Of a stretch of 64,000 nt of DNA, positions 2,674 to 6,997 are shown one piece after another. The first letter of the stretch is position 1, and each line of letters opens with the position of its first letter. Below the pieces are notes generated by a model. It saw only the letters and a list, made by a program, of their open reading frames with translations, did no database searches and had not been told where the DNA came from. The stretch is from positions 62,001-126,000 of the forward strand of contig JALOON010000045.1 of NCBI GenBank assembly GCA_025454405.1, given 5' to 3'. The translations under genes and the position numbers were made by a program. The DNA comes from Oscillatoriaceae cyanobacterium Prado104 (GTDB taxonomy: Bacteria > Cyanobacteriota > Cyanobacteriia > Cyanobacteriales > Microcoleaceae).

Positions 2674-4728
2674 TTACCGAGCCTTATCGTCAGCAATCAA
2701 GCACTTGTCAGAATCGCAGCCTGCCGGGCCGGCATCCATCATTTCACCCATGTCGTAACGCCTCAAAGCTGCGTGAAAAACCTCGCTTTCGCGACGCGCT
2801 AAAACATCCTGCAACATCGTCTCGTAAGTTTCCTTATTTATCGGTTCAAAGGGCAAGCGCGGGAAAGTTTCCAGCGCATCGAACCGAGCTAAAAGGGCTG
2901 CGGAAATGTAACCTTCGTCATCGCGAATTGCTTCGTAAATCCGAGTTCCCAGACTTTCAATTTCATGTTCGCGAAGTTCGATCGTCGCTGAAGTATTGTG
3001 TCTGACGTAGAACTTTTGCACCTGCATGTAAAAGTCCATTTGTGCCGCTGCCGAAAACTTGTTAATATCAATTTCATCAGCACCCGGCAAGTCAGCCCAA
3101 CTTACAGCAACAGGTATTTCTACCAACCATTCCGTACAGCGATCGTCGAAAGGATTGTCAAGCAAATTGCCGTTTTCATCTTTATCAGATTGAGACGGAA
3201 TTACATTGTATCCGTAATCGATGCAAGCGAGGGCTACGGGGTCATTTTTGCGGAAAGTAATGCGGCGGATAAAACGCTGCGCTTTCGGCGGGTGCCATCC
3301 CGGAGAAGCACCTGTCAGCAAAGATTTAGTACCCGATGGTTGTACCGTCGTGCAGCGATTTGGACGCTTTAAAGAATGTCGATCGCAATAATCCCAAACT
3401 GCCCGATTTACAATCTCCCGCCAACCGGTTAAATACTCTGCTTCCCGCTTTTTAAAAGCAATTCCCCGCGCAGTATCCGGCCGCCCGTCCGCCCACCAAC
3501 GCAGCCAATCTACGCCGAAAGCATTGACAAAAAAGTCGAACAACCCAGTAAAAGAAACACCGACGATCGGGTCTAATTCGCGGCTGTAATTGTAGCGCGG
3601 TTCGAGAAATTTGTGGTTGAGAAGTACCGCAACAGATAGAGCGCCAGCCTTGAAAGCTTCCTCCTGTTCTTTAAAATTGTAAGGATCGATTTGATTGAGG
3701 TGGATCTCAGACAAATTACAGTTTCCCGTTAGCGTATTGCCGAAAACTCCCTTATGAAACTCTGTTTCATTGAAGCAGTAAGTATCGTGCAATCCTGGTA
3801 ATTCTTCGACACTTCTGACGATTTGCCATTTACCTTTGTGTTTAGCCTTTGTCCCTTTGCTCACATCTAATCGCTGACAAGGAATTTCACCACAGTCAGT
3901 AATTTGCAAGTAGTACAAATCATGACTTCGGACACCGTAATTGGTAATTGCTCCTTGATGAGCACAAAGATTTAGCGACGAACGAATACCGCATTTGGTC
4001 AAAAGTAGCTGAACTCTAAAAGCGCGATCGCGATCGGAGATATAAATTCTGATACCATTACTATGGGTATTCGATCCGTCCGTATCTGCTAATCCAGCAA
4101 TAAAATGTAAAATTGCTTGCCGATTCCAGCTCGCAATTACATTTAGTGCTTCGGGGTTAACTTTCAAACTTTTCAGAAATTCTCCAGAAAAGCTCAAGTT
4201 AATTACATCTGCAAAAACAGGTAAATAGTCATAGTTTCTTTCAGGCGACTTATTTCCTGCTACTGACAATGCCATTTTGCCTTCGTAAAGTCGAACTTTT
4301 GCATTGTCATTTTGGTCTGTAGTTCCATCTCCTACAGCTACACCCAAAGTGTAAGCATAATTTGCATCGATATTCAAGCCATCTTCATACTGAATTGTAA
4401 AAGGTTCAGTATGAATGCTATATCGACTTGTATCCATCAAGTCTTTGGTTTGAACTTCTTGGTAAACTTTACCAAATCGATCTTTGACAAAGAAACGATG
4501 ATATTCTGTAGCATCCAGATAAGTACCATCAGCAAATTTTACGCGATAAAGTTTGCGTCGCCCGCCAGAAGTATCGCTTGTTGTTTTAAATGGCGTGACT
4601 GAGCTCCATCTTTTACCATTCCAAACTTCGATTTCACTTCCAACAACGTCCTTTATTTTATGCAGTCCGTCTTTCGTAATTAGCAGAGTGTCGCCACTGA
4701 CACAATGAAAATTAGAGCCGATGATTTC
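2674..4728 (-). CDS. nrdJ: Adenosylcobalamin-dependent ribonucleotide reductase, exon 2 (includes intein)
   Basis: This is the C-terminal coding exon of a class II (B12-dependent) ribonucleoside-triphosphate reductase, which reduces ribonucleotides to deoxyribonucleotides. The open frame starts EIIGSNFH at 4728, is interrupted by an in-frame intein (4704-3721), and resumes with CNLSEIHLNQIDP. Family landmarks follow: DPIVGVSFTGLFDF, TTVQPSGTKSLLTGASPG and RRITFRKNDP. The protein ends with a tail carrying a Cys pair (AGCDSDKC), the thioredoxin-accessible relay cysteines of this class. An independent short protein starting at the TTG near 4440 is not a real gene; it is the interior of the intein. 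The complete enzyme needs splicing at RNA level (4729-4981) and at protein level. Confidence 0.9.
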   Translation of the reverse strand, partial: EIIGSNFHCVSGDTLLITKDGLHKIKDVVGSEIEVWNGKRWSSVTPFKTTSDTSGGRRKLYRVKFADGTYLDATEYHRFFVKDRFGKVYQEVQTKDLMDTSRYSIHTEPFTIQYEDGLNIDANYAYTLGVAVGDGTTDQNDNAKVRLYEGKMALSVAGNKSPERNYDYLPVFADVINLSFSGEFLKSLKVNPEALNVIASWNRQAILHFIAGLADTDGSNTHSNGIRIYISDRDRAFRVQLLLTKCGIRSSLNLCAHQGAITNYGVRSHDLYYLQITDCGEIPCQRLDVSKGTKAKHKGKWQIVRSVEELPGLHDTYCFNETEFHKGVFGNTLTGNCNLSEIHLNQIDPYNFKEQEEAFKAGALSVAVLLNHKFLEPRYNYSRELDPIVGVSFTGLFDFFVNAFGVDWLRWWADGRPDTARGIAFKKREAEYLTGWREIVNRAVWDYCDRHSLKRPNRCTTVQPSGTKSLLTGASPGWHPPKAQRFIRRITFRKNDPVALACIDYGYNVIPSQSDKDENGNLLDNPFDDRCTEWLVEIPVAVSWADLPGADEIDINKFSAAAQMDFYMQVQKFYVRHNTSATIELREHEIESLGTRIYEAIRDDEGYISAALLARFDALETFPRLPFEPINKETYETMLQDVLARRESEVFHAALRRYDMGEMMDAGPAGCDSDKCLIADDKAR
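3721..4704 (-). mobile_element. Intein with LAGLIDADG homing endonuclease in NrdJ
   Basis: This is a 328-residue in-frame insertion between SNFH and CNLSEIH. It starts with Cys1 in block A (CVSGDTLLITKDG), has block B with the TxxH motif (DATEYHRFFV), and ends in GNTLTGN followed by Cys+1 of the host protein. The middle contains two DOD endonuclease helices: YTLGVAVGDGT and FIAGLADTDGS. The penultimate residue is Gly rather than the usual His, a known variant. Removing it restores continuous RNR sequence. The host Cys+1 corresponds to the redox cysteine region next to the active site (near Cys419 of Lactobacillus leichmannii RTPR). The endonuclease motifs look intact, but activity cannot be judged. 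Confidence 0.92.
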
Positions 4729-4981
4729 CAGTTATGTTACCCTAAAGGCTTTTTATCCTCTAGTTCTACAGATTCCATTTTCCCTGTAGCTCGGCGTACT
4801 TTTTCATCTACTTAAGTTGTAAATGCCCCGCACTCTTGCCAGGATTATATTCTTCAAAAAAGAAGGTTCACCCGGTACGCTCTACGGTGGTAAAGAATTT
4901 TTAATTTCCTTACTTACCTCGGAGTTAACATCTCAGTTTTCTCCGATTTTGCGAGGTTTTTAACGTGAGGCAAAATTACTT
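4729..4981 (-). mobile_element. Putative group I intron within nrdJ (no ORF)
   Basis: A 253-nt non-coding insertion separates the NPCG codons from the EII codons of nrdJ. Boundaries fit group I rules. The upstream exon ends GTGTGGT and can pair with GCCTCAC at intron positions 11-17, giving a P1 helix with a U.G wobble at the splice site (one U.U mismatch); the intron ends in G. GCGTAC (plus strand 4875-4880) and GTACGC (4794-4799) can form a long-range P3-like helix, directly followed by a hairpin CTACAG/CTGTAG. A terminal hairpin CTAGAGG/CCTTTAG lies before the 3' end. Exact excision rejoins the conserved NPCGE motif. There is no GUGYG start, which argues against group II. I could not identify a clear P7, so the subclass is open. 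Confidence 0.7.
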
Positions 4982-6220
4982 ACCACACGGGTTTAAGCCC
5001 AAACGAACTGACCGATGCTCTAGTTCTTTTTCAGTCATATTAGGATGGCGTTCCTGCAACCACTGTTGAGCTTTTCCTTCATCGTAAGCTCTCAAAAATT
5101 CAAGCTTAAGACTCGGTGTTGAAATTAAGTCAACGTTAGCTCTAGCTACGGCTTCGCCAGCCCATTGAATCGCACCTTCACCAGAATAATACTGTTTGCG
5201 AACGGCATCAATACATTCTTCTTGAGTTGGTTTGTGATGAAAAACACGAGAGTGATTGGCCATCCTCAAAGCATCGCGTTCTGGATCGATTCTCCAGTTG
5301 CCATTTTCATCTTGTTGCCACAGATTATTTTTAGCATTTGCCCCTAGTTCATCACTAGATTCAAACTGACGAATCCCCGCGCTTCTTCTAATGTTCCCAG
5401 CGACTATGGTGACTGCTGCTTCGTCAATCAATACGCAGCATTCAACTGAATTTAACTGTCGCCCCAGAGCTTTATTCAAAATTGCCGCGCACCGCTGGTA
5501 AAGGTCGGGCAATTTCACCGGATTTGCAACTCCGCCAAAGCCTTTTAAAGGTTCTCCTACCGGGCGAACGTCGCTCAAATAGATCGAGATTTGCACTTCA
5601 CCTTTGAATCTTTCATCTGTCGATAATTCCAGCAAAGTTTGATAGGATTTTACCCAACCTTGGCGGGAATCTCCGACATAGATTGTTGCAGTGTCTCCTG
5701 CGATTTTGACTTCGGTTTCTTGACGGCGGGATGCAGCGGGTGTAGCGCCTATTTCGCCTTGCAATGTGACAGTTAAACGGTTGCGAATTGGCGGCAATTG
5801 GTTGATATATTTTGGTTCTAAAACTGCGCCCGTCCCGCAGCCCATCATTGCCAAATCCATTAACAAACCAAAGGAACGCCAGTCAAGAATATTTGTTGAG
5901 GAACAGTTATATGCGCCGGAAAAGTTCTCGGGTTGTTCGATCCATTTGCTGCCGCCTACCCACAGCCAGCGCCCTGAAGCGAGGGTTTTGAGCTGGCTTT
6001 GCATCCGGTAGAGCAGTTGTGTTTCTTCGGGGGTGAGTTTTCCAAGCGATGCCAAGCCCTTGACAGTTCGATCGCACACTTCAGCCCAAGTCTCCCGCCC
6101 CGTCTCGGTACGGCGGCTGTAGGTCCTGAAAAACACTGGGTTGGCTGCTGGTGCCGTTTCTGGAAAATCGCACTGATTGCGCTGCTTGTTGGCGCTCGAT
6201 CGCTCTAATTCTCGAACCAT
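4982..6220 (-). CDS. nrdJ: Adenosylcobalamin-dependent ribonucleotide reductase, exon 1
   Basis: This is the N-terminal exon of class II RNR, beginning MVRELERSSANKQ. It carries GRWLWVGG, GAYNCSSTNI (the first redox cysteine region), AMMGCGTGAVLEP, IVAGNIRRSAGIRQF and ends in LGLNPCG, where the Cys is the thiyl-radical cysteine. Genomic translation continues two codons into the intron and then hits TAA at 4976, so the exon ends at 4982. An upstream in-frame start at 6268 is possible, but ATG 6220 starts closer to the conserved sequence. The start codon and first codons lie inside a 129-bp segment that is duplicated upstream at 6857-6984. Without intron splicing the product would be a truncated reductase lacking the rest of the active site. 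Confidence 0.9.
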
Positions 6221-6331
6221 AGGTCGTGTACTGATGCGGAATAAATTCAACAGACTACGACTATACAACAGGATTCAGATTTAGGGTTGATAACTGTTGC
6301 GGGTTGACAATTTGCGCTATATGTGGTGATC
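6203..6331 (-). repeat. Direct repeat copy A: nrdJ promoter and start region
   Basis: This 129-bp stretch is nearly identical to 6857-6984 in the same orientation. It covers the first codons of nrdJ, the start codon and about 110 bp of upstream DNA, so it should contain the nrdJ promoter. A TATAGT hexamer near 6264 is a possible -10 box. A handful of substitutions and one indel separate the copies. Confidence 0.88.
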
Positions 6332-6393
6332 GAGAATCTGCAAGCTCAGCAAAATTTTCTACCTAGTCCCACTGAATACCAGTAATTTTGTTG

Positions 6394-6446: not shown

Positions 6447-6728
6447 CTACCAGTCTGAATTGCAAATTGCATCCCCATCAGAAGAGTTAGGATCGATACG
6501 CCATTGCAATTCCTGGTTAATCCGCCTCAAGTTTGAGTTTTCAGTCTTCAAGTCGAGATTTTCAGCATTTAGGTAATTCACTTGAGCTTGAAGCTCTTGA
6601 ATCTTGCTGTGGTAAGGTTGATATCGCTCAATATCTAGGCTGAACACCAGTTTTAGCCGGATATTTGCTAATAATTTCGGGTACTCGAATTCTTGAGCAT
6701 TTGCTGCAAAGTCATTGGTTTGTGTCAT
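6447..6728 (-). CDS. Hypothetical coiled-coil protein, 93 residues
   Basis: A short soluble protein that I do not recognise. Residues 40-75 (KIQELQAQVNYLNAENLDL, then KTENSNLRRINQEL) form a leucine- and asparagine-rich heptad pattern typical of a parallel coiled coil, so dimerisation is likely. It sits exactly between two direct repeats that contain the nrdJ promoter region, and has its own downstream terminator at 6394-6425. It could be transcribed from promoter copy B. A strong Shine-Dalgarno sequence is absent before the ATG. It may be a small cargo gene inserted with the duplication. Confidence 0.5.
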   Translation of the reverse strand: MTQTNDFAANAQEFEYPKLLANIRLKLVFSLDIERYQPYHSKIQELQAQVNYLNAENLDLKTENSNLRRINQELQWRIDPNSSDGDAICNSDW

Positions 6729-6856
6729 ACTGAGTACTTGATTTTTTTGTGCATTCCCTGGTCAGTTAGTCGCTGCTGGGGATTTTTATTGGTCTAGCTA
6801 TTGTTTTTTCACTGACGAGCTTGCCGAGTCTGATTAACCGTCAGACACTGCAATCT

Positions 6857-6984
6857 CTCTAATTCTCGAACCATAGGTCGTGTACTGATGCGGAATAAAT
6901 CAACAGACTACGAATATACAACAGGATTCAGATTTAGGGTTGATAACTGTTGCGGGTTGACAATTTGCACTATATGCGGCGATC
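6857..6984 (-). repeat. Direct repeat copy B of the nrdJ 5' region
   Basis: A 128-bp near-identical copy of 6203-6331. It keeps the ATG and about the first six codons of nrdJ, but the frame then runs into unrelated sequence, so it is a non-coding relic. A TATATT hexamer replaces the TATAGT of copy A; this could drive the 93-residue ORF downstream on the minus strand. Confidence 0.85.
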
Positions 6985-6997
6985 CAGACTCGATCGA

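Follow-up and report, generated by a model that had tools for sequence, protein, structure and literature searches.

A putative group I intron and a LAGLIDADG intein 24 coding bases apart at the catalytic cysteine codons of a cyanobacterial nrdJ gene

We analyzed the nrdJ gene of Oscillatoriaceae cyanobacterium Prado104, which lies on the minus strand of a 64,000-nucleotide (nt) stretch of contig JALOON010000045.1 (positions 62,001 to 126,000; assembly GCA_025454405.1). This whole stretch is referred to as the window, and all coordinates are counted from its first letter. The product of nrdJ is an adenosylcobalamin-dependent ribonucleoside-triphosphate reductase (RTPR), a class II ribonucleotide reductase (RNR) recognized by a match to TIGR02505. 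The gene is interrupted by two unrelated, putatively self-splicing elements, a group I intron within the codons of NPCG|E and an intein within those of FH|C, a position that we denote site B. The features are as follows:

4982 to 6220, minus strand: nrdJ exon 1, with a likely start at ATG 6220 (TTG 6268 is also open) and its 3' end at NPCG|
4729 to 4981, minus strand: putative group I intron of nrdJ, 253 nt, starting with AAGTAA and ending with G (omega G), supported by empty-site alleles and covariation
4976 to 4978, minus strand: in-frame stop TAA, which is intron codon 2
4705 to 4728, minus strand: extein segment EIIGSNFH, 24 nt, between intron and intein
3721 to 4704, minus strand: intein at site B, 984 nt and 328 amino acids (aa), running from Cys1 to TGN with Cys at +1 and containing two LAGLIDADG-type motifs
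2674 to 3720, minus strand: remainder of NrdJ after the intein, with first residues CNLSEIHLNQ, the leading Cys aligning with C419 of 1L1L

Exon 1 ends with the residues GLNPCG, the final codon GGT closing at 4982, and is followed by AAG TAA. Exon 2 opens at 4728 with GAAATCATC (codons GAA ATC ATC GGC TCT AAT TTT CAT). The intein opens with TGT at 4704 (sequence CVSGDTLLITKDG...), and its final residues are ...TLTGN, ending at 3721; the extein continues from TGT at 3720. An earlier note on this DNA had placed the intron inside the codons of NPCG|E, and this was borne out to the base by two congeneric genomes (G277 and G033), in which the exon pieces are directly joined at exactly 4982|4728 without an intron. 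Its placement of the intein eight residues past the intron, at the next conserved Cys, agrees with the coordinates (4728-4705, then TGT at 4704). The note had also claimed that the RNR sequence is continuous once both elements are removed, which is confirmed by the adjoining exons in G277 and G033 and by the two gene halves, which match neighboring stretches of TIGR02505 (profile positions 18-378 and 387-723 of 724). The 3' part scored 412.8 bits (cut-off 340.05), and the 5' part 335.8 bits, which alone is under the cut-off. In an alignment to the Lactobacillus enzyme 1L1L, the Cys of NPCG corresponds to C408 and the Cys after FH to C419, which in established enzymology are the bearer of the thiyl radical and a redox-active cysteine, respectively. 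The intron lies between these two codons.

To place the elements among relatives, we searched 291 genomes of the order and found reductase matches in 151. The classified set comprised 150 nrdJ loci from 147 genomes, and four further genomes with a reductase match were left out. An insert at the intron point was found in 60 of the 150 loci, with lengths of 235-1153 nt, so that the position of the intron is beyond chance. These introns could be grouped into the class of the window intron, denoted class 1 (54 out of 60), and a second class (6 out of 60). All 60 are preceded by T and terminated by G, and all have an in-frame stop within the first seven codons; according to a review, stops of this kind may help the intron to fold (PMC3984707).

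The earlier note had named a group I score with the Rfam Intron_gpI models as a check on the intron, and the window intron gave none: an Rfam scan of the window returned no group I intron at gathering level or at E values up to 10, which weighs against a group I identity. With RF00028 (Intron_gpI), 0 of 5 class-1 loci scored, and 3 of 3 class-2 loci (of the six) scored 75-89 bits. Because Rfam gave no score, we used the relatives to establish the identity of the intron. The fold was counted on the 35 distinct sequences among class-1 introns no longer than 312 nt, a length limit that 37 of the 54 class-1 loci satisfy. The structure was assembled by hand, as RNAalifold cannot represent crossing helices; the same sequences suggested and tested it, and the alignment itself was built from sequence alone. 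The helices counted were P1, P10, P3, P4, P5, P6, P7, P7.1, P7.2, P8, P9, and a terminal hairpin, in group I order. The strands located in the window are as follows:

4982 to 4989, minus strand: P1 exon strand CGTGTGGT, whose last base U makes a U.G pair at the 5' splice site
4972 to 4976, minus strand: P10 intron strand AUUUU, with its partner GAAAU in exon 2 (4728-4724)
4964 to 4971, minus strand: internal guide sequence GCCTCACG, the 3' strand of P1, with a compensatory partner change in L302 and L289
4951 to 4956, minus strand: P3 5' strand CCTCGC, pairing with 4831-4826, all six pairs changed on both sides
4876 to 4880, minus strand: P7 5' strand GCGTA, pairing with 4798-4794 and crossing P3, 100% paired, with two-sided change in three of five pairs
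4826 to 4831, minus strand: P3 3' strand GCGGGG, from the covariation count
4794 to 4798, minus strand: P7 3' strand TACGC, from the covariation count

In this 69-pair structure, 96.8% of the cells were paired compared with 81.1% after shuffling, and 43 pairs had changed on both sides. The covariation score was 0.455, compared with 0.153 when shuffled (0 of 500 as high) and at most 0.101 when slid. Two-sided changes were found in every helix except P1 and the outer two P10 pairs. The core helices P3, P4-P6, P7, and P8 were 86-100% paired with compensatory changes in each, P6 being the weakest (86.1%), and P7 crosses P3, as is required in group I introns. The hairpin P7.1/P7.2 between the P7 5' and P3 3' strands, an extra hairpin that marks subgroup IA, was 98.5-100% paired. 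P10 was 94-98% paired with a two-sided change in one of five pairs, and in Bacilli its partner follows the exon, as judged by eye. P1 was 99.6% paired. As P1 is nearly invariant within class 1, its support comes from the U.G pair at the 5' site (35 of 35), from two introns of Bacilli (L302 and L289) in which the exon CATGTGGT is paired with the guide GCCTCATG, and from class 2, in which the exon TTGCGGT stands opposite the guide GCCGC. The covariation in these 35 relatives upholds the group I identity proposed in the earlier note, despite the absent Rfam score, and supports the view that the window intron is a compact, endonuclease-free group I intron of IA-like type.

The insert could instead be the remnant of a group II intron or some other structured RNA. 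Group II introns have been published for cyanobacterial RNR genes, the window has no Rfam group I score, and its best weak match, a SAM_alpha riboswitch, reached half of its gathering score (18.1 bits, E 0.21, gathering 36). We dismissed the SAM_alpha match because its matched paired bases are the outer pairs of P1. The group II reading was dismissed on the ends and the core: the ends AAGTA...ACTG are unlike the group II consensus, and the helices follow group I order with P3 and P7 crossing and two-sided changes. The U.G pair at the 5' site (35 of 35) and the terminal G (60 of 60) also count against it, and we consider an identity other than group I to be extremely improbable. In a search of the genome for further copies of the intron, the window copy alone was significant, the next matches being at most 31 nt long with E values of 0.02 or worse.

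The exon codons at the intron site were found to be locked. The codons CCG TGT GGT directly precede the intron in all 54 class-1 loci, and the full P1 exon 8-mer CGTGTGGT is present in 54 of 54, compared with 11 of 90 intron-free loci. The next codon outward, for Asn, lies beyond P1 and is variable in class-1 loci (AAC in 32, AAT in 22). At the 3' exon no such lock was seen: 47 of the 54 intron loci have GAAAT, as do 70 of the 90 others. The locked codons are what P1 pairing, or a homing target, requires. The exon of class 2 is CTTGCGGT in all six loci, with codons CCT TGC GGT. In this second group I class, which occupies the identical nrdJ codon (L054, L060, L067, L078, L084, and L135, from G121, G150, G081, G062, G039, and G005), both the guide and the exon differ from those of class 1, the guide matching an exon with synonymous codons.

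The intein at site B was matched by the N-terminal splicing profile TIGR01445 (36.4 bits, cut-off 24.5) and, over one stretch, by LAGLIDADG_3 (PF14528; 28.1 bits, cut-off 22.5), and the LAGLIDADG motifs YTLGVAVGDG and FIAGLADTDG could be recognized by eye. With its terminal residues as expected and both profiles over their cut-offs, it can be accepted as the intein that had been proposed. Of the 149 loci that could be judged at site B (the 150th lies on a short contig), 49 carry an intein there. All 49 inteins are open and contain TxxH, and their C-termini are GN in 34 and GQ in 15 (TGN|C in the window). Between the window intein and four near relatives, the ratio of nonsynonymous to synonymous substitution rates (dN/dS) was 0.12-0.17, which indicates purifying selection.

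We searched the genome, which is 99.94% complete, for other RNR families, namely the class I small subunit (PF00268), the C-terminal part of the large chain (PF02867), and class III (PF13597), and found none of them; these models matched 7, 11, and 6 of 14 control genomes, respectively. One RTPR locus was found at E values up to 1e-20. If this picture is complete, DNA precursor synthesis goes through both splicing steps. As no other RNR family was detected and intron codon 2 is an in-frame stop, we infer that a functional RNR would depend on both RNA and protein splicing. In the proposed mechanism, the pre-mRNA would self-splice first, the exon end CGUGUGGU pairing with the intron guide GCCUCACG. 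Guanosine would attack after the U, and the exons would be joined at NPCG|EII with the predicted junction CCGTGTGGT|GAAATC. The joined mRNA would then be translated, and the intein would excise itself, ligating FH to the Cys equivalent to C419. Given the stop at intron codon 2, unspliced RNA should yield a truncated product ending in NPCGK.

Besides the absent Rfam score, two observations weigh against this account. First, the window intron has no endonuclease gene, which makes its present mobility doubtful. Second, no C-terminal intein model matched at E values up to 0.01, and the penultimate residue of the intein is Gly rather than His, so that the intein chemistry is less certain; inteins without the penultimate His are known as exceptions. 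The missing endonuclease gene would also fit an intron that is a dead remnant, with nrdJ split or unexpressed and another reductase in use. We regard such a remnant as highly improbable, because the genome holds one RTPR locus and no other RNR family was found in it, the P1 codons are invariant (54 of 54), the helices are conserved in relatives, and the intein has the low dN/dS given above (0.12-0.17). We are confident in the reading of a group I intron and a LAGLIDADG intein 24 coding bases apart, both of which would splice in the cell, the intron first.

A further intein site, denoted site A, is located between NP and C, 6 bp upstream of the intron point, and is occupied in 43 of 150 loci. 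The site A inteins belong to at least two divergent lineages, as the type found in G001 and G250 has 30-36% identity to the four others compared. The claim of the earlier note that two unrelated elements have converged on one spot was thus supported and even understated, given this third site. Among the 150 loci, 28 had no element, 19 had B only, 27 A only, 16 A and B, 45 the intron only, and 14 the intron and B, while one had the intron with B undetermined. A and the intron were found together in none of the 150 loci, with or without B, with 60 carriers of the intron and 43 of A. A Fisher test of A against the intron, with relatedness ignored, gave 1e-12. In a phylum-wide pattern search of 386 genomes, a set that overlaps the first, an intron start after NPCG was found in 27 genomes (6 of them spurious-looking by sequence) and an intron start after an intein end (HNCG) in none.

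This exclusion might be an artefact of sampling or relatedness, with few clades that never met. The loci are related, the detail comes from one order, four genomes with a reductase match are unclassified, and the tree is a quick one based on the reductase. However, at least 36 changes of the intron and 31 of the site A intein are needed on this tree (35 for B). We compared 21 independent pairs of loci on supported branches, one member of each pair with the intron and the other without, and in no pair did A change in the same direction (median p 0.004). We then simulated each trait alone along the tree; 1035 of 6000 runs came within 25% of the observed totals and were kept. The simulated double carriers of A and the intron had a mean of 15.6 and a minimum of 5, compared with 0 observed. 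Two control pairs showed no clear exclusion (intron and B, 14 observed and 15.3 simulated; A and B, 16 and 13.5), and being close to the simulation they fit independence. Moreover, the 15 loci of the window's genus alone contain six of the eight possible combinations, the two absent ones being those of A with the intron. An artefact is therefore improbable.

We propose that the codons around the two catalytic cysteines would form a homing target that the RNR gene can hardly change. Elements 6 bp apart, with the intein at NP|C and the intron at CG|E, exclude each other, the most likely reason being that insertion of one removes the endonuclease site (and the P1 helix) of the other; elements at a distance of 24-30 bp coexist. 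Failure of RNA splicing could produce the same pattern if an upstream intein costs P1 its two outer pairs, endonuclease targeting playing no part. The P1 exon strand does span the insertion point of site A, and the full 8-mer is kept in 54 of 54 class-1 loci. However, P1 would still have its five inner pairs (in TGTGGT), and the guides follow exon changes (class 2; L302 and L289), so that selection could adapt P1. Homing endonucleases have long targets, and exclusion is expected from them without a splicing defect. Splicing failure as the whole cause is thus possible but doubtful. Mutual loss of the endonuclease target, rather than shortening of P1, is favored, because the guides have followed exon changes and because elements coexist at 24-30 bp.

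Several points limit the overall account. The data do not separate the endonuclease site, P1, or a combined cost as the cause of exclusion. The intron and B also lean slightly apart (Fisher p 0.074), with 2.3 independent pairs changing the same way and 7.0 the opposite way (median p 0.18). In addition, three intron-free alleles of the same genus (G277, G033, and G228, the last with the upstream intein) retain the locked codons, so that loss and gain are inseparable there; these alleles may reflect a recent loss, a replacement, or a target that is vacant.

Other arrangements were observed in single loci of the survey. G183 has two nrdJ copies, one with both inteins and the other with the intron only (L112 and L122). 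In L136, L186, and L187 (G073, G124, and G107), a further insert is apparent about 30 residues upstream of NPCG, besides the intron, and the matches stop at query residue 180/210. In L124 (G143), what looks like an additional intein (CLDRTALRIFDQG...) follows TTVQPAG in a more downstream part of nrdJ.

We expanded the search beyond the order by scanning species genomes with a 24-base pattern of the intron 3' end, which gave at least 116 matches in at least 114 stretches. The sequence that follows the match is a cyanobacterial NrdJ exon in 72 of the 116 listed, a different reductase (EQPL..CNL) in 28, and something else in 16. The 28 carriers of the other reductase among the matches listed comprise 27 Bacilli and 1 Arthrobacter; L196 is a vitamin B12-dependent reductase (NF005991), and the remaining 27 are recognized by motif only. 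Exon 1 was within the locus in 95 of the 100 reductase matches listed, and the intron followed NPCG in all 95. The family thus occupies an identical codon in two enzymes that are only distant relatives, from two phyla. When eight cyanobacterial introns were aligned jointly with seven others (six from Bacilli, one labeled Arthrobacter), the structure held, with 92.1% paired, a value reached in 0 of 500 shuffles. Its weak points are P6 (61.6%) and the three outer P4 pairs, which fail in all seven non-cyanobacterial rows; this could be either misalignment or a real difference.

Long copies of the intron encode endonucleases, many of them homologous between the cyanobacterial and the other introns, as examined in 27 introns of at least 600 nt with an open frame. 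The 345-aa frame of one cyanobacterial intron had matches among the frames of 7 of the 9 cyanobacterial introns, counting itself, and of 15 of the 18 remaining ones; the best match among the latter had an E value of 7e-37 and about 30% identity. The Pfam matches of this frame were under the cut-off. A second endonuclease type among the long introns is HNH and, judged by eye, is similar to copies in Bacilli. The intron 3' motif was also common in phage contigs, with at least 124 matches in at least 120 viral stretches. No clear RNR exon was found at the viral matches listed; L332 has a CNL string downstream and no NPCG upstream. Some of the viral stretches, among them L398, L401, and L373, have two matches each, and the frames next to them appear by eye to be dUTPase-like, tape-measure-like, or capsid-like.

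In the window itself, about 140 bp over the start and upstream region of nrdJ (6199-6338) are repeated about 654 bp further upstream (6853-6991) with 93-98% identity, and a 93-aa reading frame (6447-6728) lies between the two copies. The repeat may stem from duplication of the promoter or be the scar of an insertion. Directly downstream of nrdJ, a low-complexity reading frame (2369-2626) with PSFFFLLPSS repeats is probably a simple tandem repeat.

Taken together, these results lead us to lean, by a little, toward the view that the radical-cysteine codons of class II RNR are a shared homing target, for which unrelated elements compete across phyla, two group I intron classes and two divergent intein lineages displacing each other repeatedly at 6 bp, and an intein coexisting at 24-30 bp. 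If so, self-splicing elements in a single gene would have to keep a minimum distance that can be measured and that lies between 6 and 24 bp. Three element types between two catalytic cysteine codons, with one site pair that excludes and two that coexist, offer a test case, and the six of eight combinations in one genus suggest that competition, displacement, and the cost of serial splicing could be measured in natural strains. The class-1 group I introns are frequent in cyanobacterial nrdJ, present in Bacilli, and missed by Rfam in five of five tested, and the position of the intron follows the active-site codons of an enzyme across phyla.

Parts of this picture are already known, namely a group I intron in a cyanobacterial RIR gene and the coincidence of an intron and an intein. 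In the literature searched, mostly without subscription papers, we found no report of intron-intein exclusion; nor did we find one of the site coincidence between Bacilli and cyanobacteria, in searches that did not include Bacilli by name. Inteins and self-splicing introns prefer conserved sites, as described by Swithers et al. (2009, PMC2814812), whose available text covers an ATPase and other proteins and contains no intron-intein exclusion at one site. In the RNRdb curation of RNR entries (2009, PMC2795772), group I introns numbered more than 100 and inteins about 80, which indicates that such elements are common in RNR genes; the accessible portion of that paper has no site-by-site comparison of introns and inteins. 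Competition of endonucleases for target sites has also been described (PMC1654191). An intron-intein coincidence in an RNR gene has been noted for nrdE of phage SPbeta (cf. Derbyshire and Belfort 1998; excerpt in PMC3653736). That gene is a phage nrdE, whereas the window gene is class II, chromosomal, and the sole RNR detected.

The RIR gene of Trichodesmium erythraeum, in work attributed to Liu, Yang and Meng in 2003, reportedly contains four inteins and three group II introns. Like the window gene, it would be a class II RNR of a cyanobacterium with an accumulation of inteins and introns, and would differ in that its introns are said to be group II, whereas the window intron is putatively group I. 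A close likeness is to the RIR gene of Nostoc punctiforme PCC 73102, a gene of the same family with a group I intron whose splicing is reported to yield functional RIR (Meng, Zhang and Liu 2007, as cited in PMC12702839). Judging from its title, the published N. punctiforme intron has an insertion sequence, whereas the window intron is compact with an intein 24 nt downstream. In another strain of this species, Nostoc punctiforme NIES-2108 (L237), the nrdJ site described here is occupied by an intron of the window's class.

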